DNA from: Branchiostoma floridae
Lineage: Eukaryota; Chordata; Leptocardii; Amphioxiformes; Branchiostomatidae
Reading direction: 5' to 3'
DNA: 64,000 nt
NCBI RefSeq assembly: GCF_000003815.2
Contig: NC_049979.1
Span: 26,793,810 to 26,857,809 of the forward strand
The first letter of the stretch is position 1. Each line of letters starts with the position of its first letter. Shown here one piece after another: positions 3,820 to 55,678 of this stretch. A model generated the notes under the pieces. That model was not told the DNA's origin. It searched no databases and saw nothing but the letters and a program-made list of their open reading frames with translations. The position numbers and the translations under genes are program-made.

Positions 3820-4384
3820 TATTATAGGTGTCTTCCAAACACACTTTCAGGTCTTCCCTTGGGAGTTGTAGTTGTGGTACTTTCAGAACTGCTGACTTTG
3901 GAGCTATAAGGGCATAGGTCACCATACACACCTAGATGACTCCAAAATCACCCAGCAACTCTCTTGATGAGCCAGCGAGATTAATTTGCTTAAGACAGCC
4001 CTTTAGCTTGTCATCTCGTGACATCTCTGTGTACAGTGACCATGTCAACAAACCACTAAATGAGTCATCAGATGAAGACTGCACACATGTACAGTCAGAT
4101 CGCTCCTCTCTTCTGGCTTGGACGTTACCAAAGATATCTCAGACATGAAACTCAAGAGTTCTAGATTACATGACGTCCATTTTTCGTACTGTACTTGGCT
4201 AGAAACGTTTATTTTCCATGAATAGAGATTTCATTCCCCCTCTCACCTGCCCAAGTGGTTGTTCCTGGAAAATGTTGCATGACGGGAAGTTTAACCTTTG
4301 ACCTACCATATTGCGCATGCGTCATTAAAATTCACCCAAAGCATTGTGGGAAGGAAGTGGCAAACATTTTGGGACGATATGAAG
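3820..4384. promoter_or_regulatory. Bidirectional FBXL4/RTF1 promoter
   Basis: The gap between the two divergent start codons is about 565 bp. At 3860-3872 the minus strand reads ACTACAACTCCCA, a fit to the ACTAYRNNNCCCR promoter motif linked to ZNF143. At 4312-4322 is TGCGCATGCGT, close to the NRF1 palindrome. At 4337-4352 the minus strand reads TTCCCACAATGCTTTG, close to the Staf/ZNF143 binding site, 33 bases before the RTF1 start. A GGAAGT (ETS-like) core follows at about 4352. No TATA box is evident. This motif mix is typical of divergent housekeeping promoters. Motif identity is by eye; binding is inferred. Confidence 0.6.
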
Positions 4385-26633: not shown

Positions 26634-27631
26634 TGTATCCCTCGCGGTTTCTTGGAGCGCGAGTAGTCTCTCTCTCCGGCGCCTTTCTTTTTTCCTCCTC
26701 CGTTTCTCTCTGATAGCCCTACTGCGAGCAAACCTTCTATGGCGGCGGCGAGCCTTGTGATGGGGTTTTCTCGCCGAGCCTTGGGCTGAGGAGGTTTCCC
26801 ACGGACCTGACGCCGACCCTGCGGCTGTTGGTAGTTCTTGGACGCTTGCTTGGTGGTCTTTGCGTCCTTCTCCGTGGCTTGCCTCTGCTGCTGGCGGGTC
26901 TTGACTGGGGCCCCCCCTCTTCGTGGGGGGTTGTCTCCGTTTTTTGGGCCCATTTTCTTGGGTGCATCCTGAGCTCGAGTGTTGACGAGTTCCTTGTCTC
27001 GCTGTAGTTTCTTGTCTCTCTTCTTGGTGAGCGCAGCTCGTTTGTTGTCCTTGAACGTTTCCACGTTCTTTTCCAGGATGTCTTGTGCATCTTGCGGGAG
27101 TTTTTCAACATCCCTGTTGAGGCTGGCGATGTTGTTGTCCAGGTCGGCTTCTGCAGAGCCGTAGAACTCAATGATGAGTGTCATCAGAGTCTTCGAGGTC
27201 TCATGCAGTGTTTCGTTCCATCGGCGTTGGAACTCAGGGCTGGTGGTGCCAATGACGGCTGTCTTCTCGATCTTCAGCCCCATCGGTACAAGATCTTCCT
27301 CGAGGTATTTGAGAAGTGTTTCTCGGTGCATTTCATACCTCACCATCTTGTCCGTAGTCTTGATCAGCTTTCTCTGGAGCGGGATGTGTTCCTTGGCCAG
27401 CGGACGTCCGTTCTTCTGTTGGACCTGTGGCTTGGCGATGACCCGCTTCTTGTTTGCTGGTTCTTGTTCTCGGACGGAAGTGCTCGATCCGTCCTCTCGC
27501 TGTCTCTTCTTGTCAGCTCTCTCTGTGTAGGAGCTTCTCTCTTCGTCATTTTTTCTAGTCGTAGTCTCCAAGCCGGATCTACCGACATCAGTCGATGATA
27601 CGGCATCCTCCCAAAGTGTGGTAGTAGACAT
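26627..27631 (-). CDS. Penelope-like element ORF1, basic protein
   Basis: 334 residues from an ATG that directly follows the 5' hairpin. It is rich in Lys/Arg/Gln with runs such as ADKKRQRED and KKRVIAKPQ (nuclear-localisation-like), a charged middle (DAQDILEKNVETFKDNKR) and a basic tail (GRRQVRGKPPQPKARRE, then GGGKKKGAGERD). No named domain is recognised. A nucleic-acid-binding or nuclear-entry role is inferred from composition. Its stop overlaps the nominal start of ORF2 by a few bases, and near its end lies an in-phase A-AAA-AAG slippery heptamer. Confidence 0.75.
   Translation of the reverse strand: MSTTTLWEDAVSSTDVGRSGLETTTRKNDEERSSYTERADKKRQREDGSSTSVREQEPANKKRVIAKPQVQQKNGRPLAKEHIPLQRKLIKTTDKMVRYEMHRETLLKYLEEDLVPMGLKIEKTAVIGTTSPEFQRRWNETLHETSKTLMTLIIEFYGSAEADLDNNIASLNRDVEKLPQDAQDILEKNVETFKDNKRAALTKKRDKKLQRDKELVNTRAQDAPKKMGPKNGDNPPRRGGAPVKTRQQQRQATEKDAKTTKQASKNYQQPQGRRQVRGKPPQPKARRENPITRLAAAIEGLLAVGLSERNGGGKKKGAGERDYSRSKKPRGIQW
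26687..26693 (-). promoter_or_regulatory. Candidate -1 ribosomal frameshift site
   Basis: The minus strand reads A AAA AAG with the spacing of ORF1 codons (GGA AAA AAG). A one-base backward slip enters the ORF2 frame, which has no stop from here to the ORF2 body. About 25 bases downstream, CTCGCG and CGCGAG (26664-26641 region) can form a 6-bp stem with an 11-base loop. The site and frame are seen directly; slippage is inferred. Confidence 0.55.
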
Positions 27632-32818: not shown

Positions 32819-34033
32819 ACAACAATTATAACAAACCAACTCAAATCTCAGCAAGTCAAAGTCATCAGAAGCCTGTAGCTATCAGTAACCTGCGTGTAAC
32901 AAAAGTCCGGCGGGGCTTTAACGGAAGTTAGGAAGGGGTGAGGGGTGGGGATATCGATGGGGTGTCGGGAAGAGGGAGATTTACTTAACACATTTTGGGT
33001 GACTCTGTAATTGTATTATGATAAAGGTGTTTTTTTGTCAAATTAGCGGTGTGTATACTCAAATTGAAGCTGATAAGAGACAGCAAAAAAGATGGTTACA
33101 CTTTTGAGTTGTAAGACGAAGGCCTGGGTGATTGCTATATATATTAGCTTCCTTCGCAGTCTTCCAACGGAACCGGCTGGCGGGGTATTACTCCCTTCAC
33201 GGCAAACTCCATTTCCCCGGCTTTAAGCCATCGTTGAAAATCGGAAACTATGATGTTATGGTGTACAATATACCTTCAGTATAAGTGTGTATATGTGAAT
33301 ATTTTGCATACCTCCATGTTCGTGTAACAAGCACCAAAATGGTGACCTTATGACTTTACATGCAGACGATGCCCCCGCATTGCTGAAAACTTTGCAGTGT
33401 TCAAATATGAAATAGAATATTATCTATGACAGTTGTAGTAAAGTAATCGAATCAAGGACCAAAAGAAAATGCCAGACCACTAAACAGTTCGGAAGCCAGT
33501 TCAGAATAACAAAATAATGTCAGTTGAACACCATGATATAAACTTCTTTTATTAATGATGCAAATGAACTGACTGTAGAATCGCCTAATTTGCATCTGAT
33601 TATGTAACTCATCACTCATTTCAGGCTGTCTAAATTTCAAAAATCATGACGAGCTGTCAACACCTTGAGTTCTTTGAAACAAAATCTGCAGTTCCAAACA
33701 AGCCGCTTGGGGGCGCAAACAGCACGTACTCTCTGCCCTAATAGGTTACTGGCGACCGCGAGGCATACAAAAAACGTTACAAAATAGTAGAAAGCTAGAT
33801 AGTCACACCAATATCATATGATCCATTCACGGCTTCTCGTGTTATTCTGTTGACAAACAGACAAACGACCGGCGACCACGATAACACAACTTTCTTCGCG
33901 AAGGTAAAAAAAAAGCATAAAAACAATCAAGACCGCATCACCGCGGACTGGTACCAAGATTCCGCCACCCGAAACCATCACCAACAATGAGGCAGTAACA
34001 CAAACCTCGACCTTGGTATTTAACACAATAGGT

Positions 34034-37000
34034 CATGGCTGTTGTTGTTGTGCACTAGTTCTACTTTTTAGTCTTGTCGCAGTCGTGGTAGTGGCAGTGG
34101 TTTTAGGCCTTAAGTTTGGGAGGACACTCTCCGACTCTGATTCTGCCAAAGTGACCTTGACCAACGCTACCACTGCGGTGTCGTCTAACTCTAACTCTAA
34201 CAGTACCACGACATCCTTAATACCAACGATCACACCTACAGAGGAATTGGGTAAGTCACTATCAAACTATCTTTGCTTGCTCTTTACATTTGTCATATGT
34301 CCATTATGTAACATTGGGACATATAGAATTTAGTAGATTTTTCTATCATTTCTTTTTGGTGATAAGTTAGATCAATCGTATAGAAATGAATACAATTAAA
34401 GGGCGTACGAAACCAAAGAACAACATTTTCTGTTTATGTTCCACAACCAAGGTATTATTATTCAATCAACATACACGTTCGCATTTGCACCAAATATACA
34501 CCATCAAAAATCATTCGATTCAGAGTCGAGGTTTTTGTCGCAAGGTAATCTAATTAAGCATATAAGTGATGTCATAGTAAACATGGCAACCAGTTCGGAA
34601 CACAGCACAGTGGCTCAGGAAAAATGTACTTTAAAGAGCCACGACAGAAAATATTGTAGTGTGTTGCAATTACAGAAAGTTACAATAATTTAGAAGTATA
34701 ATAAGCACCGTTTGCTTCTCAAAAGTACGTTTTTCACAAACCGTGGTGCTAGTGTATGCAGAAATGTCCAGCCAATAGAACTATAAACCTGTATCTGTTG
34801 CTTCTACGTAACTAGGGTATCTCTTTTCCCTGTTGTAACACTGGCTGTGTTTCTGGCCCTTATTCGGCTGACCATCACTACAGATTCTACCCAAGTCACC
34901 TTGGTCAGCAGTTCTACGAAGATGTTGACCAAAAGTTCCATGATGTCCACTGCAGAATCATTGACCACACCCAGCAATGATAAGGGTAAGTCAGAGGGTC
35001 ACGATATATCAGACCATTGTCACAAAATCTCGGCTTTTGTCTTAGAGAAGACAAAACGTAATGCATTGCCCACACTTCGACAACCTACACCTCCCATGAC
35101 CATGACCATGACCATGACCATGACCATGACCATGACCATGACCATGACCATGAGAAAATACCCGGTGAGTTCCCTACCAAAACGTCCCCCAAAAGCTTCT
35201 GAGACAATCCATGATCAACCTATTTCCTGTCATGTCTTCTTCTGTTATCAGCGTTACAAGAGGACACTTTGGAATCGTCAAAGTTTCTATGACTTTGCTC
35301 GACTTTACACAATACTTGATGCACAAGTTTAACAAATAGCAGCGTTACTATATGTATTACCGATGCCAGCCCCCAAAGCCAGAAAACTGGAAAAAGCGGG
35401 CTATGTTGTTGTTAGACAAGACAGGTACCTGTACATGCATGTTGCATGAAACAATCAGTTCATAATTTTATCCTGAATAATGCAAGTTCAGTTCAGTTAA
35501 AACCCTGGGCAAAATGATCAGTGTTGGTCTTTTTTGCCCTATTGATCAACTTATTATGGTCTCTTTGTAGCTCTCTTGTGTAACTTGTTATGGTATACCA
35601 GCAGACCCGTTTCAGATGACATTGGGTGCTTTATCTGACAACCGTTGTCACCCGTGTTATATTTCAGACTGCGGCAGCCGCAATTCATCCTGCGTTGAAT
35701 GCATTGGAAATATAAAGGTGGGTACAAACGCGGGACTTTATGGTTTAATGTACCGTCACTAATGTGTGCAATCGTGCGTCCAGACTAAAGGTGCGTTCTC
35801 ACTGCACTTGCGTCACGTTTGCGTCACTGCGGGGTTCGAAAGATACTCATCGAATTTCAGAGATTTGAAAAAGCGAATTTTCTTATTTTTTGTGTATTTG
35901 TCGTCTTGTAAGTCAAACTTTTACGTATTACGCAATATCTAAATTATAAAAATCGGAGAAAATAACAAAACAGTGACGAAGTGCACGAACTTCGCAGTAA
36001 CGCAAGCTTGACGCAAGTGGGCATGAATGTACAATAAAGGCTTTAACATTACTTTATATTGTATTGCAAATAATCATGCAGGATAAGATAATATTATCAT
36101 TTTCATCATCAACCATCAGAAAATAAAAGCAATCTGTTGTTTTCGTCCACCAGTGCTACTACTGCCACAATGACAACACCTGCCGTCTGTACCCGGCCTC
36201 GGCGGTTCTACCCACGGCAGAGTGTCCGCTGTCACAGGTGCGGTGGGGGGCTACTTGTGACGGTACGTAGGGAACAACCGATGTCCACAGAAATGCACTA
36301 CTACTTACGACAGTTTCTCCTTAGTTATAAAGTTTAAACTTTATTCCAACACGCACACAATAAGACTGGCAATAAAAATAAATAATAATAATGGTTTATT
36401 TCACAGAAGCATTTCGCAGCCTTTAGGCTGAATTGCACACTCCTTTCACATGAGAGTCAAAAATCGACTGTAGGAAATACAATTGATAATACAGCTGGGT
36501 AAAATATCATACATAAAGTTTACAGCCTAAAGATTAAAAGTATTTTTAAATTCTATTGATATGATTTACAGCAATAGGATAATCTTAGTGTTTGTAATGC
36601 TTTCTAATCTTGAACATTTTACATTGGTGGTCGATACAATACATGAACATTTAACAATACAATAACAATACAAGAATTAAAACTTGATGGGGTTTTCATT
36701 TACATATCAACTTATGCACCTGTCTACATACTGTTATTTAGCAAAGTAGTTAGATATGGAATTGGGCTGTTTCTGTAGCGCTCTGTGTGTACTGGCAATG
36801 TTACTAGTTGATTGTTTTGTCGCGTTACCCTACCGCTGACGTCTCCTCTACGCTTGGGAAGCCAATGTCGGTACTCGTCTGAGGCGTACAGGCTCTTCGC
36901 GAACTTCAGAACCAAAATGTTATTGCCATGGCGACGATTGATGTGAACATCAACATAACTGAAACGGGGTATCGACTGAAACTTCCCTGTGTATCGCACT

Positions 37001-38694: not shown

Positions 38695-40155
38695 ATGGAG
38701 ACGTCGTTTGGTTTCGAAATAGTTGAGCTTTTGCTGGTATTTCTGGACGTCATTCCCGCTCTTTTCCACAATAAACCATGTATCAAGAAGGTTGTTATGA
38801 AATGTACAAAAGAATCAAAGCCTTATGAAAGCAACATGTCAATATGTACGACCGTATAAGTGATAAATAGTGAAATATTATCGAAAACAAAGCCGGATGT
38901 TGTTTTTTTTTCAATACAAATCACCTCAACTCAAACCTCGGCAAGTTATCAGAGTTGCGTAGCTATCAGCCACCTACGCGAGGAAAAAAACGTCCGGCGT
39001 TTGTTTGTTTGTTTCTTTATTTAGCTCTCTATTAGACTTTACAATTGCAAACTCTATTCTTCCTGTAAGGAGGCGAGGGAAAAGGGAGAGATGTTGGAGA
39101 GGTTCGGAAACAAATTCGTTGGTGACATTCTAAATATCATATAATGAATTTTGAAAATCTTTAGTTTGATTTTGAGAATACCCTTGCGTGATTGAAATTG
39201 AAATTGAAGATATTAAAGGTATCTAAGAAAATAGGCATTTTGGTTGTCGTAAGGTTGCCACTGTATTAAAGATTGTTTCACGAACCTGTGTATTTTCTGC
39301 ATATGAAGTATGTTACGGTGTACAATGTACCTTTAAGTATGTGAATATTTTGAAAAATACCTCAAGTTCTTGTAAGACGTACCAAATTGATATCTATGCT
39401 GCACATGTACAAGCATTAAAAGCTTTGCAGTTTTGAAATATGAAAGAGAATATCATCTTTGATAAGTAAGTAAACTAATGACCTGAAGCAAGGGCCAAAA
39501 TAAAAGGCCAGATCACTGTTGTAAATGAGAACACAGATATGAATACAATCATGTTATGACTTATAATATAACATGTATATTTTGCCGTCAGAAAGATTAC
39601 TCCCTACATAGTAACGTCTTCGAATACCGAAAAGCCTTATCACGTTCTATTTCAATAAAAAATGATGACGATCCCTCAACTCCTTTCTGTGTTATTCCCT
39701 CGCAAAAGCCTGCAGTTCCTAAATAAGCCGCTAGAAGGCCCAAACCTATACCACTTACTCTCGGACCCAATAGCTATCTACTACTGAAATATTACGACCA
39801 CAGCAAGTCCAGAACTCGAGATACCAAAGTAGGGAGCTCTGTTGCAGAACCGTAGCAAGCCGCTAGGGGCCCCAAAATCTAATCGTTTCCAGTTCTTATA
39901 AAGAACTACCCACATACTGAATATCAATACAATCCATTCAAGCGTTCTAGAGTTATGCTGGTCTTCTACAAACGTACAAACATACATACAAAAACACAAA
40001 CGCTACCCAAAACACAACCATCTCGGCGAAGGAAATTTAAAATCAAGACCGCATTACCGTTAACGCGGACTGATACCAACTTTCTCCCACCCGAAACTGT
40101 CGTCAACAATGACGCATTAAAAGACCCTGGTATTCAACACAACATGGTCGCCATC

Positions 40156-43100
40156 ATGTCGGAAGGGAGAGGCTATAACTGTTGTTGTGGTTTGCTAGTG
40201 GTATTTATTAGTCTTGCCTCTAATTCTGCTCAAGTGACCTTCAAGTTGGTCAACACTACCACCCCAGTGTCTTCTAACAGTACCATGTCTACCGTAACAC
40301 CTGCGATCACACCTACTGGGGAAGTGGGTAGGTCGCTATCAAACTATCATTACTAGCTCTTAGTTTTTACATATATAAAGGGAGGCGTTTAAAGGGTTCT
40401 TTACTACAACTCCTGTATTAGTTAGATAATCCTTAAGTTAAGTTATAGCACTGTAGTTATGTAGATGCCATACTTTGTACCTCGCACAATTTCAAAACAG
40501 AAGGGTCTAGTTTGAAATGGCTTAAGAAACTTAACAGGACACCAGTACATCTTTCCTTGAAGAATGTGCAGAAATGTTATTCTATAAAACTACAGTAACT
40601 GTATATGCTATTTCTATGTAACTGAGGTCTTTTTTTATCCCCGTTGCCACACTGGCTGTGCTTACGGGCCTTCTACGACTAAAAATCGCTACTGATTCCA
40701 CCCAAGTGACCCTGGTCAACAACTCTTCTACGATGTCCAGCAACATTTCCATGCTGTCCAGCACAGAATCACTAACTACACCCGGCATTGAAGGGGGTAA
40801 GTCGGGCGGTCACCAGATCACGGCCTTTGAGAAAACAAAACCAAACCGAATCACAATACAAGTGTGTATTACAGTATCACCGATGTTTACAGCCACTGTG
40901 TCAGTCAGATAGCACTATGAATTAACGTGCGTGTCTATACTAAATAGACAGGGAATGGTGTAAGTCCTTGATACGCTACAACAAGACAATTGATAAGCGA
41001 TGTTCAAAGATCCTTCAAAAGTGTCGTGTGCGTTTCGTGCCTTCTTTGGTTATTAGCGTTTCCTCACCGAACTGTAGAAACTTCAAAGTTTGGATGCCTT
41101 AGACTTATTCTAGTATGACGCGTCACATAGTCTTTCCACAAAATTAAACAAATAGCAGTGTAATTTATCACTATGACATTGTATTGTCTATTGCAGTCTG
41201 TCAGAGCTGCATTAAGTTGATTAGATATAAACTAGCAAAACTAGTTTGTTGTTAGACAGGACAGGTACCTTGATGTTGCATAAAACAGCTGGTACATAAT
41301 GTTAAATGTAATCTCAATAACTCTAACCCTGAGCAAAATGCTCAGCGTTGTTTTTTTTGTGCCATATTGTGGAGCTTGTTATGGTCTTCAATCGAGCTCC
41401 TTTGTGCAGCTTGTTATGGTATACTAGCAAACCATGATCGGATAATAAACGGTCCTATGTTTGACGACTGTTGTGATGTTATTACCTTTCAGACTGCAGC
41501 AGCCATAGTTCATGTGATGAATGCATCAGGGATGTGAAGGTGGGTTCGAAGGGTCAACAAAAGCTGCATGGGGGGGGGGGGCAATTTACCGATCGGTTTG
41601 GACAACAATGACTGCATCCAGTTATATACAGCATGCCTGTGTCTGCTAACACTCAACTTTCAAGTTATACTAATCATGTATGCAAGTCATTGAAACATTC
41701 GGTGCTGCAAATAGTCTACATAGGATCAGTCAATATAAGCTCACATGTTCATTTTCATGATTAGTAACAATTAGAAAATAGAAGCTCATAAAGCCACACC
41801 TCATTGCGGTTACAGCAATTTTCTTCAATCAATGACTGTTTTGTAAAGGTACAGTACATACCTCCCAAATTTTCGATGTCTACCAGCACATCTTCGTCAT
41901 GGGGAATGACTTGTTTTTGATTGAAGAAATCTGTTGTAACTGTATGCATACGTGACTGATGAACCTCTTCAACGACATCTCATTGCGTTGTTGTTTTGGT
42001 TATTTCCCCAGTGCTATTACTGCCTCAAGGACAACTTCTGTCGCATGTATCCAGCCTGTAGAGTTCTACCCACGTCGGAGTGTCCGCTGTCCGAGGTTCG
42101 GTGGGGAGCCACGTGTGACGGTGCGTAGCTACGTAGGAAACTGCGGATATCCACAGAACTGCACTGATCCTGAGGGCAGTTTCTCCTGTTCCTGTCGTAG
42201 CTGAACGCTTTGGTTTGGGGCTGACTATACATTGTATATGACTGACAAGATCGAAGGATAATGAAATTTTCTTTTACGTAATTACACATCAGTAATGTCA
42301 CTCATCTGCTTAGGCTAAGGTCACATTTCCACAAAGAGGCCCGGCCGGGCAGCTTTCAGGAACGATAATTATGACATAAAAGACAACAAAAACACAAAAC
42401 GGACCGAAAATAATTCTACGGCATGCACTGTGCATATCTATTGGCATAAATTTAAATTTTTCTTTTCCGCAAACAGCCCGGCAGGGCCCCGGGTAGGAAA
42501 TGTGATGTAGGCCTTACCGTTACGTTTCAATGCCAATCAAAAGTCAGCCTGGAGCCTCTAACCGCAGTTATATGAAGTCGATGTAGGTGGCGCTTTTGCG
42601 GCGAAAACACTGTCACAAACGAGGCTAACCCTGTAACACCGCCCCCACCCCCCACTAGGGTTCATCACTGGAGCTGACTTCCTTATCCAGACAGCCTCCT
42701 TAAAAAAACGGACACGTTTGAGGCGTTACCGGTTGTTTTTAAGAAAACGCTAATATCCTAAATTTTTATGTTCTACCAACCGGATTTAATTATTTTAGGA
42801 AGATCGAAGGATTCCAGTAAAAAGATGTTTGACCATGTTTAATATGAGCCACAAAAGTCTAGATACCAGCATGTTCATTTTTAGTAAATTTGGGAGGTAT
42901 GTACTGTACCTTTACAAAATAGTCATTGATTGAAGAAAATTGCTGTAACCGCAATGAGGTGTGGCTTTATGAGCTTCTATTTTCTAATTGTTACTAATCA
43001 TGAAAATGAACATGTGAGCTTATATTGACTGATCCTATGTAGACTATTTGCAGCACCGAATGTTTCAATGACTTGCATACATGATTGGTATAACTTGAAA

Positions 43101-45123
43101 GTTGAGTGTTAAACTCGCGTCTATCAAGTGTATTTGCAGACACAGGCATGCTGTATATAACTGGATGCAGTCATGAAAAGCGGCCTGCTGGCCGATTTGA
43201 GCTTCTCATGAATAAACAAAGGTTCAAACAAAGTACGTTCTCAATGTTGACACGGAAGCGACCGAAATAGTGCACTGACGCTAAACTGGCTGCTGTTACG
43301 TATACGCAGTTCTTAGAAAATCAATTCATTCCCCTTTTTTCAGTAAGCTTTAAGGTGCTTGTGGTCGCTGTGTCCGTGGTTGCTGCAGTCCTCGTAATAG
43401 CCATGTGTGTCTGCTGTTGTTGCTGTCTGAAGTGCCGAAGCAGGTTAGTGTTGACATTTATGAAGCCTTCTGCAACAGGATATATTGCTTAATCAATACA
43501 TTTGAAAATGAAATAAATTTTATTAGTCAGTCTACCCACTATGGAGCCAAAAGAAACAGACTATTTCGAACAGTTTCCACAATTTCACCGTTTCACTGCT
43601 TTTAAATTTTACCATTTATAAGATCACCAAAAGACTATATTTCTACTAAAAGCAAAGGCCCAAACCATCATAGAGTACGTGGAACAGTTCATGAACCACT
43701 TTCTTCAAAGAAAAAGTCAAACCCGATAATTGTATACATTGTGGCATACAGTTGATTAGACACTATATATCATACTTTGACGTATCACTCTATTTTCTAT
43801 ATTTTATCCTTCGAGACTGTACGTACATGCAGTTAGCCTTCGGGCATGATTTTACAAATATTGTGTATTTTTATTGTCATGATTCTTCAGTAACCACGTG
43901 TCTTCATCATTGCTTTAACCCTATTCAGATCGGGCTTTTTTGGTCATCCCTGGACGGGGGTGGGGGTGGGGGTGTCTGAGGTTGGGATGCTTTTCAGGCC
44001 CTCCACATCTAAGTCCTATAACTGTTGAACGACGTGCACTGCGGCCACCCAGGAAATGATATAGATATAATATCTGACAAGTATAAGACATTTGACGTTA
44101 CGGTGACGTAATATGAGGTAAATATGACGTCAACAAATTGATTGTATTGGCCGGACCGAAAAAAGTGTATTATCAGAAAGCTTCAAGTTTTGCTCCAAAA
44201 ATGTAATAGAAAGTGCAGATAACAGAGTTATAATGTTTGTTACGACTTGTGTTGCCAATAGCAGCATCAATGACGTAAAAATAACGTCATGAAAGATACC
44301 AGTTGGGATCCGCCATATTATATGTACCACCTTGTATTTTCAAAAATACTTTTTTTTGGCAACAAATAATCACAAAAGGTAATGGAAATGGACTACATAC
44401 ATTCATTTAGATGGTTTTAATGAAAATAACACCAAGTAGTTACAAATTCTAAGGGATAATAAGCTAGTTATTCTTGATCTGGCCATACGGTCCACCATCT
44501 TGGATTTGGGCTGATGGCGTCATCAAATTAGCATAATTTATGCATATATATGATTATGAAAGATATTCTTAATAACATAAGCTTTTATTTATGTAACAAA
44601 ATAGCAGTAATATAGCATATAAACGTAAAAATACTTTTTTTAGAACCGAAATTAGTGATTTTTGGCAAAATTGCCTGTCAACAAACGGTTGCCATGGAAA
44701 ATTTGTCAAACTTCTGGAAACTGTTACCAACAATATTTTAAGAAAACTCACCAAATTTGGTGTTTCTAGCATGATACGACATCAAAGTTGGCGCAAGCCT
44801 CAAAACCCCCTTCCCCCCGTCTGAATAGGGTTTAATAATTTATTTGCTGCAAACATGCGACGCAGTTCTGCCCTGTAGCATCTCCAAGAATATCGTTCGG
44901 TATTCTGAATATGCATACAATGCTTTTATGATTCTTATCTACGTATTGAATATCACTCTAACCTTACTCTGCTTATAGATTCTGCAGAGGAGACAGTCGC
45001 CATACTTGGAGGGATTTCCAATGGTCACGAGACAATCGCGCTAACCAGATGAACCCCAACAACTGGCGCTACTATAGCTCCCGCGCAATGGTACCTCCGT
45101 GGTATGAATATGAAAGCGCATAA
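40156..45123 (+). CDS. PTTG1IP-like cysteine-rich membrane protein, gene D
   Basis: Exons 40156-40327, 41493-41539, 42012-42120, 43344-43443, 44988-45123; phases join, about 187 residues (191 if the in-frame ATG at 40144 is used). Exon 1: NCCCGLLVVFISLAS signal-like core, then VNTTT and NST glycosylation sites. PSI-like module: DCSSHSSCDECIRDVK plus CYYCLKDNFC...CRVLPTSEC...WGATC. Exon 4: VSFKVLVVAVSVVAAVLVIA transmembrane helix and a Cys cluster. Exon 5: RHTWRDFQWSRDNR, then NQMNPNNWRYYSS, and a C-terminus longer than B or C ending WYEYESA. The stop codon directly abuts a LINE. Exon 3 is surrounded by an inverted repeat (41608-41872 and 42886-43174). The annotated chain appears complete; family as for gene A. 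Confidence 0.7.
40622..40796 (+). pseudogene. Degenerate second exon-1 copy (1b) in unit D
   Basis: This encodes SFFIPVATLAVLTGLLRLKI, then TDSTQVTLVNNSS, in one frame and ends at a phase-1 donor. A TAA stop lies immediately upstream and no ATG is in frame. It matches 34800-34985 of unit C. Confidence 0.5.
41608..41872 (+). repeat. Left arm of inverted repeat around exon 3 of gene D
   Basis: Starts ATGACTGCATCCAG and ends CCTCCCAAATTT, in intron 2. It is the near-exact reverse complement of 42886-43174. Confidence 0.85.
42311..42516. mobile_element. MITE with TAAGGTCACATTTCC ends
   Basis: About 206 bp in gene D intron 3. The left end CTAAGGTCACATTTCC is mirrored by GGAAATGTGATGTAGGCCTTA; GC-rich inner words CCCGGCCGGGC and GCAGGGCCCCGG follow the ends. 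Non-coding. Confidence 0.6.
42886..43174 (-). repeat. Right arm of inverted repeat around exon 3 of gene D
   Basis: Starts AAATTTGGGAGG and ends TGGATGCAGTCAT. It carries a 25-base insertion (about 43110-43135, AACTCGCGTCTATC) absent from the left arm. Confidence 0.85.
43914..44833. mobile_element. DNA transposon remnant with AACCCTATTCAGA ends
   Basis: About 0.9 kb in gene D intron 4. The left end TTTAACCCTATTCAGATCGGG is mirrored by CCCCGTCTGAATAGGGTTTAA. A relative in opposite orientation starts at 63107 (AACCCTATCCAGACTGGGG). Shared inner words include GCGCCAACTTTGA, AAAATATTGTTGG and CCATGGCAAC. No ORF is seen. A short relic end lies at about 27997-28012. Confidence 0.65.
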
Positions 45124-47627
45124 AGGAATCTATAAACAATATTAATAGGGAAAGAGCGACTTGTTATATTATTGGTGATTTCAATATTAATCTATTAAAC
45201 AATACTAACCAACCCACTACTGATCATATAAATGAAATGTTCTCATCTGGCTTCTACCCACTTATATGCAGACCTACCAGAATTACACCTTACTCTGCCA
45301 CCTTAATAGACAACATTTATACAAACTCAGGTAGCAACAATATCAAGGTTGGCATCCTCATCACTGACATATCAGATCACTTTCCAATATTCCTTTCATC
45401 CGAATTAAACGAGCCAGTCAGACAGGCAGACAAAATATCTTATCGCCAAGTTAACACAACTAACATTCAGAAATTTACACAATCCCTATCAGAAATAGTA
45501 TGGAGCGACGTATTAAACGAAACAGACACAGAGAAAGCATATAATCAGTTTCTCGAAACATACGTATCGTTATACGAAAAATGTTTCCCAAAGAAAACTA
45601 CAAAAATCTCCCAGCAGTCTCGCAAAAAACCCTGGCTTAGCAGTGGATTGTTAAAGTCAATACGCAGAAAAAACAAGCTCTACACTAAATATGTCAAGAA
45701 CCCCACGCCCTTAAACCACAGTATCTATAAAAAATACCGGAATAAGTTAAATCATCTCCTAAAAACTACAAAGAAGGATTACTACCACAAAAAGTTCAAT
45801 GAAGCTACCAGTAACATAAAACAAACATGGTCCCTGATAAATGAAGTTATAAATCGTAACAAAAGCAACTCAGCTGGTCCAAACAAAATACAAATTGGTA
45901 CCAAAACTACCGAAAATAAAGATGAAATATGTAATGAGTTCAATGATTTTTTCATTAATATTGGACCTACACTTGAAAGTAAAATCCCAAAAGGAACACA
46001 AGATCCTCTTAGCTACATCACTTTACAAGTAAATTCTAACCTATCAACTTTTGTGCCACCAACTGATGCTGAAATTACAGATATTGTCAAAAACTTAAAG
46101 ACTCAGCTGCTGGTCATGACGAAAATAGCCCTAAAGTACTAAAGTTGTCACTACNNNNNNNNNNNNNNNNNNNNNNNNNNNNNNNNNNNNNNNNNNNNNN
46201 NNNNNNNNNNNNNNNNNNNNNNNNNNNNNNNNNNNNNNNNNNNNNNNNNNNNNNCACTAAAAGTCGCAAAAGTGACGCCTATTTTTAAAAGCAGTGACCC
46301 ACTAAATGTTAACAACTATCGACCAATATCTGTCCTTCCCTGCATATCTAAAGTCTTGGAAAAGCTAGTATATAGTCGTCTTTTGAAACATTTAAATCAA
46401 AATAACATCCTATATAAACATCAATATGGTTTCCGAAAGGGCTATTCTACCTCTCTGGCACTCATACACTTAATGGAAAAAATTTCTACCGCCATAGATA
46501 ATTCAGAATACACAATAGGAATCTTTCTCGATCTATCAAAAGCATTTGATACGGTTAATCATTCCATTCTACTCAATAAACTAAAACGATACGGTATATG
46601 TGACTCCGCAATAAAATGGTTCTCGTCTTATCTATCCAATAGACAACAATACGTAGCTCTTAACGATAATAAATCACAACCCAAAATAATAGAATGTGGT
46701 GTCCCACAGGGTTCGATATTAGGACCTCTACTTTTTCTGATTTATATAAATGATCTCGAAAAAGCATCCTCAATTATATTCTTTATCCTATTTGCAGATG
46801 ATTCAAATATTTTTCTTTCAAACTCGAATTTTGATACGCTAGTAAAACTTGCTAACGAAGAAATGAAAAAGGTTATGTCGTGGTTTGAGGCAAATAAATT
46901 ATCAGTAAATGTTAAGAAGACATATTATCTAATTTTCTGTAATAGAAATAAAACCTATAACAAAAGTGCCAAAATCTTTTTAAAAAGTGTGCCCCTGTCT
47001 CAAGAGAGTCAAGCCAAATTCTTAGGTATAATCATTGATGATCGACTGACCTGGAAATCGCATATAACTATGTTAGGTAAAAAGATTTCAAAAACTATCG
47101 GTATCATTGGAAAACTTAAACATATTCTTACTCAAAAAACCATTATTACCATATATAATAGTTTAATATACCCGTATCTAACCTACGGGAATATAGTCTG
47201 GGGATGCGCCTACAAAACCACACTACAGCCCCTGATATTGCTCCAAAAAAGATTTGTTCGTTCAGCCACGGGCGCCAGTTTTCATGCACATTCTGCACCT
47301 TTGTTTACAAAACTTAAGATTTTGAATATTTTTGATATCAACAAACTTCATCTGATGCTATTTACGTTTAAATTCCTAAACTGTTCTCTTCCAGAAACAT
47401 TTAATGGTCTTCTAAATCTTAATTCTCATTTTCATAATTACCAAACTCGTCAAAGTGCTCATTTCCACATTCCCCTAGTTAGAACGTCAGTAGCCCAAAT
47501 GAGTGTAAAATACAAATGTATAATTAATTGGAATAATCTCCCCCTCCATCTAAAATGTTTAACATCAATAATTAGTTTTAAACGCAATCTAAAAAATCAC
47601 CTACTTTCCTTTCCCACTGACATTTGA
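45121..47627 (+). CDS. LINE ORF2 endonuclease/reverse transcriptase (broken by gap)
   Basis: Before the gap: the C-terminal half of an APE-type endonuclease (IIGDFNINLL, RPTRITPYSATLIDNIYTN, DISDHFPIF) and the linker. After the gap: reverse transcriptase motifs TPIFKSSDPLNVNNYRPIS, YGFRKGYSTSLAL, GIFLDLSKAFDTVNH, GVPQGSILGPLLFLIYIND, FADDSNIF (catalytic Asp pair) and FLGIIID, then the usual C-terminal tail, stop at 47625-47627. The frame is open on both sides of the N run. The 5' part of the endonuclease is missing, so this copy cannot be autonomous. CR1/Jockey grouping is by motif style; the exact clade is not assigned. Confidence 0.85.
46155..46254. other. Assembly gap (100 N)
   Basis: A run of N; the true gap length is unknown. 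Confidence 1.
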
Positions 47628-50213: not shown

Positions 50214-53200
50214 TTATCGCAGCTTGATTTGTAACGAGATTTTCACTTGTCTGTTTGATATGTAAACCCCTGCTGTAAGCTTCTGTTCTGCTCTTTGCCA
50301 TGTTCTGCCAAGTCCCTGAGTACCACCTCCACTTCCAGTGGAAGCATCATATAGTAGAACATTCAGAGTGCTGCGTACTTGACCTTGGAGCGTTTGGACA
50401 GCGTCGCGTACCTGTTGCGCCGCCATGCGGAAAGAGGCCGCCTTACACGTGATGGGCCGCAAGTGGACATAATCCAGTCGTGTCATGTTGACAAACGCCT
50501 TTGTCAGTGCGGGGAGACTGAGAGCCAGCTCATTCTGCTCCATGTAGATCTTCTCCAGTTCCTGCAAGTGTACCAACCTTTTTGCAATGGTTCTTCCGCC
50601 CGCATTGGTGATGGAGTTTTTGGAAATATCGATTCTTCTGAGTTGTTTCAAGTGAGGGAATGCATCAGAAATAGACTCCATCCCGACATTCCCAATCTTG
50701 TTGGCGTTAAGGTTTAAAGTTGTCAGTTTATGCAGTAGAGGAAGCCGTCTGGCTATTGAAGCTGCTGCTTTTGAAGAAAGTCCGCAGTTTGAAAGCAGAA
50801 GCCCGGCTGTTCCCCTCAGGTATGGGAAAAGTTTAGCCAGAGCCTCAACATCATTGTCAGAAAGATCAAGTCCGGACAACGATAGAGATGACAAATACTC
50901 GCTGTTTTGAAGGAGATTTGTCGTGTTTGGCAGCCCCTCCAATGCGCCCAGCATTGACGAGAAGAACTCTGCGTATGTGAAGAAGCCGCGTGACTCCATG
51001 TACTCCTTTGACGTTCCGTCCACAATGCAGTATTCTACAGCAACTGATAAGGTGCGCGGGAGGGCCTTGATATTTTTCCAGTACCGACACACCCAGGGCC
51101 AGAAGAACCGGTCTTCCAGCAGGGCCATCACCACCTCATTGTCAGGATAGCGCTCTTCCAAACCAATGGCGGCATCATTGTCCTGTTGGAAATACTCTCT
51201 GATGTAGAGTCTCCACTCACTCCACCAATCTGCAAAAGCACGATAAACAGTTTTTGTTTTAAATTTCTTATTTCATCTCCAATAACAATTACCCGCGAAC
51301 AGGAAAATGATGACCCGTTCTATCTTCCACTGCTAGGTGGCCCTGCAGTTTTGAGAAAGCGAACGTGCCAAACGTGACTAAGTTTCCCTGCCCGGCCATG
51401 GGATAGACCAATCACAGCTGTCAATCGAATGTAGCTATTTGGCCAATAAGAGAAAAGAAAACGGACGATGGGAGTTGCTAATAAAGGGTGTTGCTTTCAA
51501 AAGGAGCTATTACCTGTTGTCTCGGAAGTAGCTGGTGACGTCATAGGCAGATGTACAGACGGTGTTGTGGACGTCATTGGAATTGTTGTCTGGTCCAGCT
51601 AGTAAAATAAGCACTATCATTATCGCAAATAATTTCAAAGCAATAGAAACAAAATTTGGAAGACTATGAGCAATCAGATGTGCATGTCATGTTGGTTATT
51701 GAATTATAATCAGCGTATCAATTCTATAGTGTACGGATGTTAAACTTTTCAAACGTGATATCTGTGATCATTATTCATGGAATGGGGTTTTACCAATATT
51801 GTAAATAATTAGATACACATGATTGTACAGTAATTGCTATAAATGTTAAAATTGCACGTTTTAACCCTTTATACTGCGCATGATAACTGTACAAATAATG
51901 CGTGCATTTTTACCGTAATTCAGTCTTTTGACTATGTTGCTTGCAATATCAATGTTGATATGTTGTTTGCAATGTCAATGCTGAATAAAAACTTTATACA
52001 TATACATATTTTACATGTTCAAAATAGGCGAATGTTGTCAAGCTTCATAACATTTTTACCAACAGTCAGAAATAGAACTGCTTGAATAAAAAAAAACACA
52101 CACAAACATAAATAAGCTATACGCTTTTAGTGTGTCGTCATCACATCTTGTAAATATATGTTACAATAAAAATATCAAGGTTTATCACAATCATCCAACT
52201 TTTGAGATTTTAGTATTATATAATTTATTGTATTATATAATACTAAATACTTTAGTATTATTGTATTCTCTGGTGTAAAATTAAACAATAAATTGTGAAT
52301 GAGAAAAGAACATACCACCAAGCTTTCGTTGAGGTTGGATCTCAGTCCGCTGTGCTGGTTGAAGATGACGGCCACCACTGTTGCAGCAGTCACGGCAATG
52401 ATGACACCAACACAGACAGCCAACACGCACCCTGGACGGGACCTGCAGAACTCACTGCAGTTCTGACTGCACCTAGGATTGTCGCCATCGTCTGGAAAAC
52501 AAAACATATATAGTCTGCCGTGAGAAATGAAGTGTGTATTTTCATCCCCATATTCATTTTTTTGCACTCATAAAGAATCTTACATACATACAAAGAATCT
52601 TATATAGTTGAAAAGAGTTTTAAAAGTTTATCTTTTGGAATCATCCTGATTAAAGTCTGACGATCCAGAGGCACAATTCTACGCGTGTCCTTCTTTTTCT
52701 CCTGTCGCTTGATATGCTTGTTCAATGGTTAGTGGTTAAGACAGGGGATCAAAAAGTCACGAGTTCTATTAATATATTCCTGCCTGCAGTAGGCCAGACG
52801 AAAGGCACTCCCCTCAGGTGTAAACGGGTGGCTGGCTTCGGCTGGAGAAATTAAAGACGACCGAAGGAGAGGGACAGGTCTGCCTCCTGAAACCATTCCC
52901 AAAACCCAATGCCCATGTTGCCTCTACAAGGCAGTATCACTACATTGATCAAGCAAAAATGTGTAAGCAAACGTGAAGCTATCCTTTAGAGGAAAAAAGG
53001 AAGGGTGTTGACAAACGTTAAAGATATGCATGTTACTCACCCCCGCCTCCTCCCCCGGCTCGGTGTCTCCAACACACCGCATCTTGTGCTGCCACAAACT
53101 CAGCATCCAAATCTGCATAAACGTTATCTGATGTTGGCTGGCCTAGTTTATTGTCGTCCATTCCGTAGAAAGGTTGTTCGTTTTTCCCCTCAGCTGAGGA

Positions 53201-55678
53201 GGATTCCATCTCGTAAAAAGGCTGTTCTTCTCTTTCTTTGCCTTTGGCAGCGGTGACGTCCATCTTGTAAAATGGCTGTTCTTGTTTGTCATCAGCAGGG
53301 GAGATGTCCATCTCATAGAATGGCTGATCTGCGGCATTTTGGCTAGCATCTTGTACTGCCAGGAAGTCCGGGTCTAAATCGGCATAGACGTGCATGGATA
53401 AGTTGGAATGTTCCTCATCGTTCTCGTAATGATTGTGTTCTTCATCGTTCTCGTAATGATTGTGTTCTTCATCGTTCTCGTAATGATTGTGTTCTTCATC
53501 GTTCTCGTAATGTCCGTGATTTTTATCGTACTGGAAATATTTGTGTTCTTCATCGTTCCCGTGATGTCCGTGATTTTTATCGTACTGGAAATATTTGTGT
53601 TTTTCATCGTTCTGGTAGTGTCCGTGATTTTTATCGTACTGGAAATATTTGTGTTCTTCGTCATTCTCGTAATGCCCGTGATTTCTATCGTACAGGAAAT
53701 ATTTGTGTTCTTCATCGTTCCCGTAATGTCCGTGATTTTTATCGTACAGGAAATATTTGTGTTCTTCATCGTTCCCGTAATGTCCGTGATTTTTATCGTA
53801 CTGGAAGTATTTGTGTTCTTCATCGTTGTCGTGATGTCCGTCGTTTTTCTGGTACTGAAAATATTTGTGTTCTTCGTCGTTCTCATGATGTTCGTTTTGT
53901 CCATCGCAATCTCTGTTTTCAGCGGTCTGCAATTTACTCTCCTCGCCATATTCTCTAACAGGTCTCAAAACTGCTTCTGGGTCTTCCCTTGCACGCAGTG
54001 CCTGTCTCTGCCAGTCGAGGATTCGCTTGGTAGACCAGAACCTCTGTCCCACCCGTCTGACGTAGAGCGGGTCCGGCGGCCGGCCGGGCACATCGACCGG
54101 CTGTGGTCGTGACTCCTTCGGTCGAACCGCAGCAGGTGGAGATACTGAATAAAAATAAAGAAGAAAATAAGAATTACGGACATGAACACATTCCCGACAA
54201 ATTCAAATAAAAGCTATCTTTCCAAGGATATTACATAATTCGCACGCCAAATGTTAGAATGGGTATTAAGTAAACTTCTTTGTAACAGGACCAAAATGAT
54301 TATCTGCCATTGTGTTGCCAACATTTCGACAGTCAGTTTCACTACCAGTTATGACAATTAAGTTCTGCTTCCGACTGCTAGGTGGCGCTGGTGTCAAGGC
54401 AGTGACGAAAATTCGGTCCCAAACGTTACTGACCTCGATCAGTGAGAGGGGATACAGAAAACTTGAATATTGCATTAGAACTGAATATAATCACATGTTT
54501 ATTAAGTTGGCTTGCCACAAAACAATTACATTAGGCCATATTGATTTGATTATATGGATGGCATCCTTAGCCGATTCCAATTTTCACCTTTTAAAAATAT
54601 TCAAACATACTGTAAATTGTACAAAGCAGCTGTAAGAATGACCAGGTGTATTTGTATTTGCTCAAACAAATTTCGTAAAACGGATACCAATGTCAAAGTA
54701 AGCCAAAGTCGTCAATATTAAAGAAGATACAAATGAGAAAGACTCTTTTGTTAAGTATACCATTCTCTGTGTGTTAAGTCATTTGTACAACCTTCCTGAC
54801 CACTTGGATTTCATACTCAAATCAACATTTTTGGCCAAACACTTTCTTGCACGCTCGCAACAGTTTTAGGGTTCCCAGACGATGTAATCCATATAATCAA
54901 ATCGGCATGGCCCTAGTATAAGTAAGGTAGCTCTGAAAATTCTGTAAAACACTATCCGTACAAATTATTCAAACGACCTCTCACAAAAATGACCCTCAGA
55001 TAGGACGTTAAACGGAGGTCCCGTGTATGGGGAGAGTCACACCCTATGCACGTCAAAGAACCCCCACATGTGCGATGGCGCGGTGTGAGATGAAGCAAAC
55101 CGTTCTGTCTGGAGTTGGTGATTCACTTCAAATCACCCGGATGGAGGCCTGGCGTACCTCCATACTGTATCAGCCACACGGTGATTTACATCATTCACCG
55201 GACGGGAGACCTGGCGCATCCCCGTCTTGTAATTAGCCAGCGGAAGTGTATATCACCCCGTAAGGGGCGGTATAACCTATCATGTTCTTACAAAACCCTT
55301 TATGCTGTATCCTGTACTGCGGGATATAAAGATTAATGCCCGACAACTGTTGAATATGCAACTGTACGGGATGTATACATTACAATACGTACTGACTAAT
55401 TCTCCGCCTATTAGAGACAACACATTCTTTCAGCAATAATTAATCAAATGTTAAGTCACCGTACCTGCTGTCTTCCTACTCTCATAAAGTCTCTCCAACT
55501 CGTCGTCTCCACAGGACGGACCCGCCTGTACCGTCCTTCTTGTACTCTTTACATTCTCCTTCTGTAGTAATGGCGGTTTCTTCTCCACTTTTGCCGCTGG
55601 ACTTCTGGTTGTTTCTCCGTCTTCAGCTTCAAAATTCGCGATCACTTTCCGAACTTCCATGTTGGCATTTTCGGCCAT
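50214..55678 (-). CDS. Type II membrane protein with repeats, YxxM motifs and LRRs
   Basis: Five exons on the minus strand: 55678-55465, 54144-53041, 52491-52316, 51598-51514, 51229-50214. All four junctions have GT-AG signals and matching phases, giving 864 residues. Order: charged N-terminus; seven 18-residue units (NDEEHKYFQYDKNHGHYE) and three 9-residue units at about 160-318; two VYADLD motifs (Tyr 325 and 414) framing four FYxM motifs (Tyr 348, 364, 382, 398); Cys-rich RCSQNCSEFCRSRPGC; one helix about 461-483 (VLAVCVGVIIAVTAATVVAVIF); a Thr/Pro/Ser stalk with an NES site; then about 637-784 leucine-rich repeats (LTTLNLNANKIG, LRRIDISKNSIT). Positive residues before the helix put the N-terminus inside. 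YxxM is the class that binds PI3-kinase p85 SH2 domains (established), so a signalling receptor is inferred. I recognise no named orthologue. Confidence 0.7.
53408..53881 (-). repeat. Coding minisatellite, 54-bp and 27-bp units
   Basis: Seven in-frame 54-bp units and three 27-bp units plus a remnant lie in exon 2 of the receptor-like gene. All units are multiples of three, so copy changes keep the frame. The opposite strand is also open across the array (53408-54112), encoding a hydrophobic Phe/Val/Ile repeat; that is taken as a shadow. Confidence 0.9.
54990..55290 (+). mobile_element. SINE-like fragment
   Basis: It contains GGACGTTAAACGGAGGTCCCG and AGTCACACCC...CACGTCAAAGAACCCCCACA. The first phrase resembles GGGACGTAAAACGGGGGTCCCG in the 5S-derived element at 56060-56332. 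This suggests a shared SINE body. It lies in intron 1 of the minus-strand receptor-like gene. Confidence 0.4.

Follow-up and report, generated by a model that had tools for sequence, protein, structure and literature searches.

Within the analysed window, a stretch of 64,000 nucleotides of the Branchiostoma floridae genome, five segments on the minus strand with AG/GT borders can be connected through their open frames into an in-phase protein of 864 residues followed by a stop codon. Exon 1 (55465..55678; all features described here lie on the minus strand unless stated otherwise) begins with an ATG start codon, is defined by its open frame and a GT donor, and encodes a putatively cytoplasmic N-terminal segment of 71 residues. 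Exon 2 (53041..54144) encodes the predicted cytoplasmic tail, comprising a conserved RPPDPLYVRRVGQRFWSTKRILDWQRQAL segment, a repeat array and a tyrosine-motif block. Exon 3 (52316..52491) contributes a membrane-proximal Cys/Arg segment, the transmembrane helix and, on the presumed outer side, a short segment that contains an N-E-S sequon, and is followed by exon 4 (51514..51598), an 85-nt Thr/Ser/Pro-rich stalk of 28 full codons. The putative ectodomain is encoded by exon 5 (50214..51229) and is whole as far as the stop codon. Thus, the in-phase joining of five open segments proposed by the sequence-only reading was confirmed.

The gene model could be compared with relatives in the same genome (513 Mb), the single animal genome searched for the family. 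The tail exon is present at at least 15 other loci, a lower bound from which exon 2 matches with 20-30% identity were excluded. At 14 of these 15 loci the tail, transmembrane and LRR exons are found in identical order, with homologues of exon 3 and of exon 5, the latter being whole, shortened or interrupted by a stop. Moreover, the stalk exon 4 yielded a tblastn match at 12 of the 15 loci and a phase-matched T/S/P-rich candidate at two further ones, and a homologue of exon 1 with 47-82% identity is located upstream on the correct strand at 10 of the 15. This conservation of exon order argues that the fusion did not arise by chance. A break between 52316 and 51598, which would have indicated two separate genes, is contradicted by the co-linear exons 3, 4 and 5 of the paralogs. 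The best explanation is that the gene is one of about 16 related loci that constitute a lineage-specific family. No relative was found in the viral contigs scanned with the ectodomain.

The predicted transmembrane helix (52361..52432, residues 460-483) forms the sole strong Kyte-Doolittle peak of the protein (2.82, the next reaching 1.04), and three Lys/Arg residues are present among the 15 residues before the helix and one after it. Sequons near residues 101 and 247 of exon 5 are retained in 10 and 11, respectively, of the 11 close rows of the family alignment, and both are missing from the distant twelfth row, L056; two more sequons fall on the presumed inner side of the helix. Because the protein contains one hydrophobic helix with positive charge on its N-terminal side, a T/S/P-rich stalk and sequons retained in the LRR exon, the topology is most likely type II with the LRRs outside. 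The single helix and the conserved sequons C-terminal to it also fit the outward orientation of the LRRs that was previously proposed from the flanking charges.

Exon 5 opens with roughly 70 residues (51018..51227) that resemble the HD1 part of NACHT proteins. They precede a ribonuclease-inhibitor/NLR-type LRR block (50442..50897), which has about six repeats and whose concave strand face is hypervariable, and a C-terminal segment (50217..50441) with the pattern LLYD ... W.R.. ... I.L..KL that is conserved in the paralog alignment. The C215 ORF ends in a similar way, as judged by eye. The assignment of the LRRs to the RNI/NLR style was borne out by Pfam, where LRR_6 and LRR_8 scored above the cut-off in exon 5, and by PDB matches of the LRR block that include ribonuclease inhibitor and NLRP chains. 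The Pfam scan, which covered exons 1, 2, 3 and 5, revealed no LRRNT or LRRCT cysteine caps in exon 5 and no NACHT domain with P-loop in either exon 2 or exon 5; exons 1 and 3 matched no family. Using hhalign, the best match of the HD1-like segment to amphioxus NACHT proteins falls just past the NACHT domain, with a score of 36.3 (probability 60%) versus 20.1 for the highest of 60 column shuffles; when wider relatives were included, the score was 49.3 (91%) versus a shuffle maximum of 21.6. The NACHT profile comprised nine of ten hand-picked matches, L076 with its acidic insert being left out. phmmer matches did not extend into the HD1-like segment, and we refer to its relation to HD1 as a resemblance only. 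The HD1-like start of the LRR exon suggests that the ectodomain probably derived from an intracellular NLR-like protein. Death and TRADD-like domains adjoin one relative of the LRR exon. In addition, a TRADD-N domain suspected in L059 was not confirmed by Pfam.

On the presumed inner side of the membrane, a tandem 27/54-nt repeat (53411..53896) detected by Tandem Repeats Finder encodes the His/Asp/Glu/Tyr-rich residues 155-316. Opposite exon 2, the plus strand contains long open reading frames at 53347-53958 and 53402-54112, probably because the repeat unit is a multiple of three. The recurrent SH2-type motif of the tails is YxN, with 8 occurrences in the window tail and 3-23 per paralog tail read whole, suggesting a Grb2-like adaptor. 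Across 14 tails, YxN is present in 131 of 161 repeat units, a count that omits C5_10920k because of an assembly gap and C10_774k as a duplicate of C10_865k, and for which the arrays of C10_18067k, C7_25843k and C7_25947k were read in part. A recount with whole tails, in which all arrays except those of C10_18067k (N run) and C5_10920k were complete, yielded 135 of 171 units. In the window repeat, the eight YxN motifs compare with a shuffle mean of 3.0 and equal the shuffle maximum of 8. The tyrosine is replaced by Asn in 17 and by His in 5 of the 161 units, and YxN in the array may have been inherited via repeat expansion, not through selection.

The repeat might instead serve mainly as a metal- or charge-binding spacer in which the YxN motifs are incidental. 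Its 162 residues include 30 His, 28 Glu and 19 Asp, and the number of units differs widely among paralogs. A weak match to PF05403 (Plasmodium HRP), far below the cut-off, points in the same direction but reflects composition and was rejected as a family assignment. However, the presence of YxN in most units and the synonymous substitutions in the codons for Tyr and Asn, observed in units picked for having Asn, speak against a mere spacer, and we regard this explanation as rather unlikely.

The paralogs differ most on the concave face of the LRRs, which was assigned solely from the repeat consensus, a single-sequence structure prediction of exon 5 having a mean pLDDT of 42.5. With 11 of 12 rows kept (L056 was left out), the entropy of the concave face is 1.75 compared with 0.64 for the core and 0.64 for the rest, a value reached in 0 of 10,000 permutations. 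Codon analysis of exon 5, for which 11 of the 16 loci were kept, yielded an omega of 1.13 for the concave face versus 0.42. The log-likelihood of the concave face is -825.21 versus -825.40 with omega fixed at 1 (kappa at 2); omega = 1 was thus not rejected, and an omega above 1 was tested for but not established. Over five non-overlapping pairs, the pooled Fisher p for the concave face is 0.024 using exon-wide dS. Since 1.13 is indistinguishable from 1, relaxed constraint is a possible alternative to selection. Taken together, the family combines a variable putative ligand face with a conserved frame, as seen in diversified recognition receptors, and the diversification of the concave face between paralogs suggests that different members probably bind different ligands. 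A variable outer LRR face with a near-constant tyrosine-rich inner tail is the pattern expected of immune-type recognition receptors. Any receptor that has to match a ligand is expected to display the same diversity, and the sequence names neither tissue nor ligand; a recognition or adhesion protein of the same build, acting in gamete, allo- or tissue recognition, would thus fit likewise. We nevertheless consider a non-immune role unlikely. As context, the LRR-exon relative stands beside Death and TRADD-like domains, and two amphioxus LRR receptors found via Lck or Grb2 in gut material were assigned immune roles (PMC8211107, PMC10199209).

Outside the concave face the family is constrained, the median dN/dS being 0.20-0.30 for the tail and transmembrane regions and the values for the remaining LRRs lying well below 1; the stalk exon 4 has a median pairwise dN/dS of 0.90. 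These regions other than exon 5 were compared across 13 to 15 loci. The tail plus transmembrane regions have a lower dS than exon 5 in 51 of the 53 pairs used (out of 55), and gene conversion was considered as a candidate cause. Several copies are damaged: C10_774k and C10_3397k carry stops inside the LRR exon, the first codon of C10_3397k is ATA, and C10_3243k and C9_18327k have shortened LRR exons with the rest located several kb away. Moreover, the genome search revealed six additional LRR-exon fragments, two of which may be the remainders of the C10_3243k and C9_18327k exons. A decaying family with little present function, of which the window copy is a survivor, is nonetheless very unlikely, given that ten other loci retain a full-length open LRR exon and that dN/dS of the constrained regions is well below 1.

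The tyrosine-motif block of the window tail (53108..53386, residues 325-417) reads VYADL, four QPFYxM and VYADL, and a motif scan verified the proposed counts of four FYxM (residues 347, 363, 381 and 397) and two YADL (residues 325 and 414). All 15 paralog tails likewise contain four to five FYx[MI] and two Y[AT]DL. Coupling to PI3-kinase through YxxM docking sites has in its favour the proximity of Tyr and Met in the four conserved FYxM, but is contradicted at the motif level and most improbable, as the actual motif is F-Y-x-M with Met at +2, not +3, and YxxM occurs neither in the window tail nor in the 15 paralog tails (two of these read in part). ITIM and ITAM patterns ([ILVS]xYxx[ILV]; paired Yxx[LI] at ITAM spacing) had no match in the window tail, whose YADL motifs carry His or Asn at -2. 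Judged by its motifs, the tail is better read as a YxN (Grb2-type) array in which YADL occurs twice in addition and the conserved FYx[MI] four to five times. Hence, the fusion, the probable type II layout, the RNI/NLR-style LRRs and the tyrosine-motif tail of the sequence-only reading are supported, whereas the PI3-kinase coupling via YxxM is not.

Tyrosine motifs in an N-terminal tail also occur in other type II receptors, for instance the C-type lectin receptors, which are comparable to the window receptor in its predicted topology and in the position of the signalling motifs; the window receptor differs in having an LRR instead of a lectin ectodomain and another motif set. Likewise, LAT-type multivalent Grb2 scaffolds have several YxN in one membrane-anchored tail, as does the window receptor. 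In contrast to these scaffolds, the family comprises up to 23 YxN (in one paralog) within an expandable tandem repeat that is fused to a receptor ectodomain. NLR (NACHT-LRR) proteins and the amphioxus C215 proteins, whose LRR exon is similar, share the RI-type LRR block and the HD1-like start of the LRR exon, whereas the window receptor has no NACHT in the scanned exons, is predicted to span the membrane and would present its LRRs outside.

Two amphioxus receptors of other architecture provide a precedent. BbLcLRR of Branchiostoma belcheri, an inhibitory LRR receptor associated with Lck, likewise combines LRRs in a membrane protein with tyrosine motifs in the cytoplasmic tail, which is phosphorylated by Lck (PMC8211107). 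It is built with the N terminus outside, LRRNT, LRR, LRR_TYP, WSC and LRRCT, then a transmembrane segment and a tail with ITIM-like motifs (PMC8211107). The window receptor, in contrast, has an N-terminal tail in which no ITIM was found, and RI/NLR-type LRRs without LRRNT/LRRCT in Pfam. FrLRR, a Grb2-associated amphioxus LRR receptor, resembles the window receptor as an LRR surface protein with a link to Grb2, which is here predicted from motifs; unlike the latter, it is described with a folate-receptor domain, Slit2-type LRRs and a predicted GPI/C-terminal membrane site (PMC10199209). The claim that no named protein has this domain order is consistent with the open-licence literature searched, in part among the best-listed matches only.

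We thus favour, with some confidence, a diversified, probably immune, type II LRR receptor whose YxN tail would couple to Grb2-like adaptors. What is observed here is the gene structure, as read from the sequence and from its paralogs, along with the order of the domains, the numbers of motifs, the retained sequons and the pattern of diversity. That the gene is expressed, that its product has a type II topology, binds a ligand, is phosphorylated and recruits a Grb2-like adaptor, and that it serves immunity, is what we infer. Outside the cell, a mucin-like stalk would bear the NLR/ribonuclease-inhibitor-type LRR domain, with the paralogs probably differing in their ligands, for which microbial or self-marker proteins are the likeliest candidates. 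Clustering by ligand would lead to phosphorylation of the tail by a Src-family kinase, and the phosphorylated YxN array could then recruit many copies of Grb2-like SH2 adaptors. More tentatively, it is conceivable that, in a chordate lineage, the HD1-LRR exon of an intracellular NLR-like protein was moved to the outside of the cell by means of a type II anchor, its concave face diversifying across about 16 loci, while the inner half remained constant and was turned into an expandable array of Grb2-type docking motifs. Each paralog would thereby present a ligand face of its own together with a docking number of its own (3 to 23 YxN in tails read whole). If true, amphioxus would possess a germline-encoded receptor family with a variable binding face and a constant signalling half, built from parts that vertebrates use differently, with the NLR-type LRR outside and a tandem-repeat phosphotyrosine array inside. 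The family would then show concretely how a sensor domain from inside the cell can become a surface receptor, and its tails with 3 to 23 YxN would provide a natural series for gauging the effect of docking-site number.

Five segments on the minus strand, each with AG/GT borders, join in phase into one reading frame of 864 residues plus stop, which bears out the sequence-only reading of a single protein. They comprise a short N-terminal piece (exon 1, 55678-55465), the predicted cytoplasmic tail (exon 2, 54144-53041), the transmembrane exon (exon 3, 52491-52316), a Thr/Ser/Pro-rich stalk (exon 4, 51598-51514) and the predicted ectodomain with LRRs (exon 5, 51229-50214). The Pfam scan placed LRR_6 and LRR_8 above cut-off in exon 5, gave no credible match for exon 2 and assigned no family to exons 1 and 3. 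Among the best 60 of 66 PDB matches to exon 5, which fall mostly in residues ~100-270, we found ribonuclease inhibitor, NLRP proteins and other LRR proteins, in line with the RNI/NLR style that had been proposed for the repeats. Exon 2 contains a 54/27-nt tandem repeat; the long open frames facing it on the plus strand (53347-53958 and 53402-54112) are probably a by-product of the 27-nt unit only.

A search of the genome (513,431,437 bases, 431 contigs) revealed the tail exon at at least 15 further loci, seven on contig C10, three on C7, two on C2 and one each on C4, C5 and C9. LRR exon partners are present at 14 of these loci, two of them partial, and six extra LRR-exon fragments lack a tail, two lying near partial LRR-exon copies. 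The possibility of two genes split between 52316 and 51598 is contradicted, because the paralogs keep the exons in the same order: tail, transmembrane exon and LRR exon follow each other in 14 of 15 loci, as determined by exon-wise tblastn and counted after overlapping loci were merged. The stalk exon was matched by tblastn in 12 of 15 loci; two more, on C4 and C5, contain a Thr/Ser/Pro-rich candidate exon in the right phase with AG/GT borders, C5 having further candidates as well, and at one C7 locus (C7_25947k) the tail alone was matched. Exon 1 matches lie upstream of the tail on the right strand in 10/15 loci, and none was obtained at E 0.001 for C10_865k, the C5 locus and three C7 loci. 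A further match to exon 1 (G000:C11:8358590-8358805, 57% identity) is located on C11, a contig without a family tail among the hits. Judged from these sequences, the window gene is real and belongs to a multigene family.

The LRR exon is open over its full length in ten loci and in the window. It contains a stop codon in C10_774k and C10_3397k, the first codon of the latter being ATA, and ends early in C10_3243k and C9_18327k. C10_774k (~774-777 kb, plus) and C10_865k (~865-869 kb, minus) are inverted copies ~90 kb apart with identical tail matches and counts, which may have arisen by inverted duplication not long ago or be an artefact of the assembly. In 51 of 53 locus pairs, tail and transmembrane exon together show less synonymous divergence than exon 5 (median 0.44 versus 0.93); gene conversion in the constant half could account for this.

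The motif scan confirmed the four FYxM and two YADL motifs of the window tail, the latter also fitting YxxPhi. The proposed coupling to PI3-kinase is wrong at the motif level, as the methionine stands two residues past the tyrosine, and the p85 motif YxxM, described as a PI3K recruitment motif in the excerpts of PMC9481563 and PMC6937578, is found neither in the window tail nor in the 15 paralog tails, two of which (C10_18067k, N run; C5_10920k, assembly gap) were read in part. Likewise, the scan detected neither ITIM nor ITAM in the window tail. All 15 paralog tails carry four or five FYx[MI] and two Y[AT]DL motifs. The repeat array carries YxN, the type of motif bound by the Grb2 SH2 domain: the window array contains 8 (mean 2.97 and maximum 8 in 2000 shuffles), the paralog tails read whole contain 3 to 23, and YxN occurs in 131 of 161 repeat units from 14 tails, or in 135 of 171 by a looser recount with whole tails. 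Tail block, N-terminal part of exon 2 and transmembrane exon are constrained (median dN/dS 0.23, 0.30 and 0.20, respectively). We infer that Grb2 or a relative may bind the YxN array. The YPNT motif of BCAP warns against equating motif with binding, since a peptide array suggested a Grb2 SH2 site that the whole protein did not use in this way (PMC6937578, in excerpt).

The ectodomain presents a different pattern. Concave positions, i.e. the strand positions predicted to face the concave side, were assigned by the consensus LxxLxLxxN over six repeats in 11 aligned ectodomains. The mean entropy of these 30 positions is 1.75 bits versus 0.64 for both the 18 core strand positions and the 103 other LRR positions, and none of 10,000 permutations matched the observed value. 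When locus pairs are pooled, dN/dS reaches 0.78 on the concave face versus 0.29 elsewhere in the LRRs. A codon model yielded omega values of 1.13 for the face, 0.42 for the other LRR-block positions and 0.55 for the remainder of exon 5, the tree being ~3 times as long on the face. In five non-overlapping pairs, face dN relative to exon-wide dS ranges from 1.00 to 1.99 (pooled Fisher p 0.024). We read this as diversification of the concave face for ligand recognition. Relaxed constraint on the concave face alone could also produce such variability, and the face omega of 1.13 accords with it, as omega = 1 is not rejected by the codon model.

The outward orientation of these LRRs on a type II helix, as originally predicted, fits the window protein. 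Residues 460-483 form the sole strongly hydrophobic segment (mean hydropathy 2.82, next best 1.04), flanked by three basic residues in the 15 before and one in the 15 after. Three N-glycosylation sequons lie C-terminal to it, and those of exon 5 near residues 101 and 247 are kept in 10/11 and 11/11 close family rows, respectively; the distant row L056 lacks both and has three at other positions. The Thr/Ser/Pro-rich stalk evolves under almost no constraint at the amino-acid level (median dN/dS 0.90). Single helix, flanking charges, kept sequons and stalk are together consistent with the type II layout; sequons alone are no proof of topology, because two occur on the presumed cytoplasmic side.

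Exon 5 opens with ~70 residues similar to HD1, the segment next after NACHT. When a profile built from 12 family rows was compared with 9 amphioxus NACHT proteins, it matched HD1 best with a score of 36.3 (probability 60%), whereas 60 column shuffles scored at most 20.1; adding wider relatives raised the score to 49.3 (91%) versus 21.6. An ORF on contig C215 and its C3 relative align across HD1 and into the segments after it (48.1, 87%, versus 30.2). The single-sequence PDB search (best 60 of 66 matches) did not reach the HD1-like part, and the link is a remote resemblance. For the C215 ORF of 1171 residues Pfam gives LRR families only, without NACHT; a Death domain and a TRADD-like N-terminal domain, each exceeding the cut-off, precede this ORF on its strand. 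C215 also harbors many long LRR ORFs (e.g. L069, L070), several of which start with an HD1-like segment. For Branchiostoma, the excerpt of PMC8195603 describes expansions of TRADD-N as well as TRADD-N proteins that combine constant regions with variable ones. The HD1-like start, the C215 relatives and the adjacent Death and TRADD-like domains point to an intracellular NLR-like protein as the most likely source of the ectodomain.

Elsewhere in the window, two similar plus-strand ORFs ~6 kb apart (33908-34333 and 39883-40356) encode a hydrophobic stretch rich in Cys and then a Thr/Ser/Asn-rich stalk with TPT[EG]E[LV]G[KR]SL at its end; Pfam assigned them no family, and they resemble two copies of one exon, coding for membrane anchor and stalk, from another gene. 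An 895-residue minus-strand ORF (24417-27104) combines reverse transcriptase and GIY-YIG domains, as in Penelope-like retroelements. ORFs of a LINE-type element with an internal N run (45114-47627, plus) are endonuclease-like, with a weak Exo_endo_phos match below cut-off, and reverse-transcriptase-like by eye. A 589-residue minus-strand ORF (2077-3846) contains an F-box and LRRs.

Among the open-licence papers listed in literature searches, none describes a lancelet LRR receptor of type II, which fits the initial impression that no named protein has this domain order. Precedents from amphioxus include BbLcLRR, linked to Lck and SHIP1 (PMC8211107, in excerpt), and FrLRR with Grb2 (PMC10199209, in excerpt), although the architecture of each, as described there, differs from that of the window protein. 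A stronger point than the PI3-kinase reading is that the tail stays constant while the LRR face of the NLR-like ectodomain varies. Building on the gene order, family, motif conservation and diversity pattern observed here, the concave face would bind ligand, the receptors would then cluster, and a Src-family kinase would phosphorylate the tail. Grb2-like adaptors might be drawn to the YxN units in a number set by the repeat, and other SH2 proteins or sorting adaptors to YADL and FYx[MI]; immune or gut cells would respond with uptake or activation.
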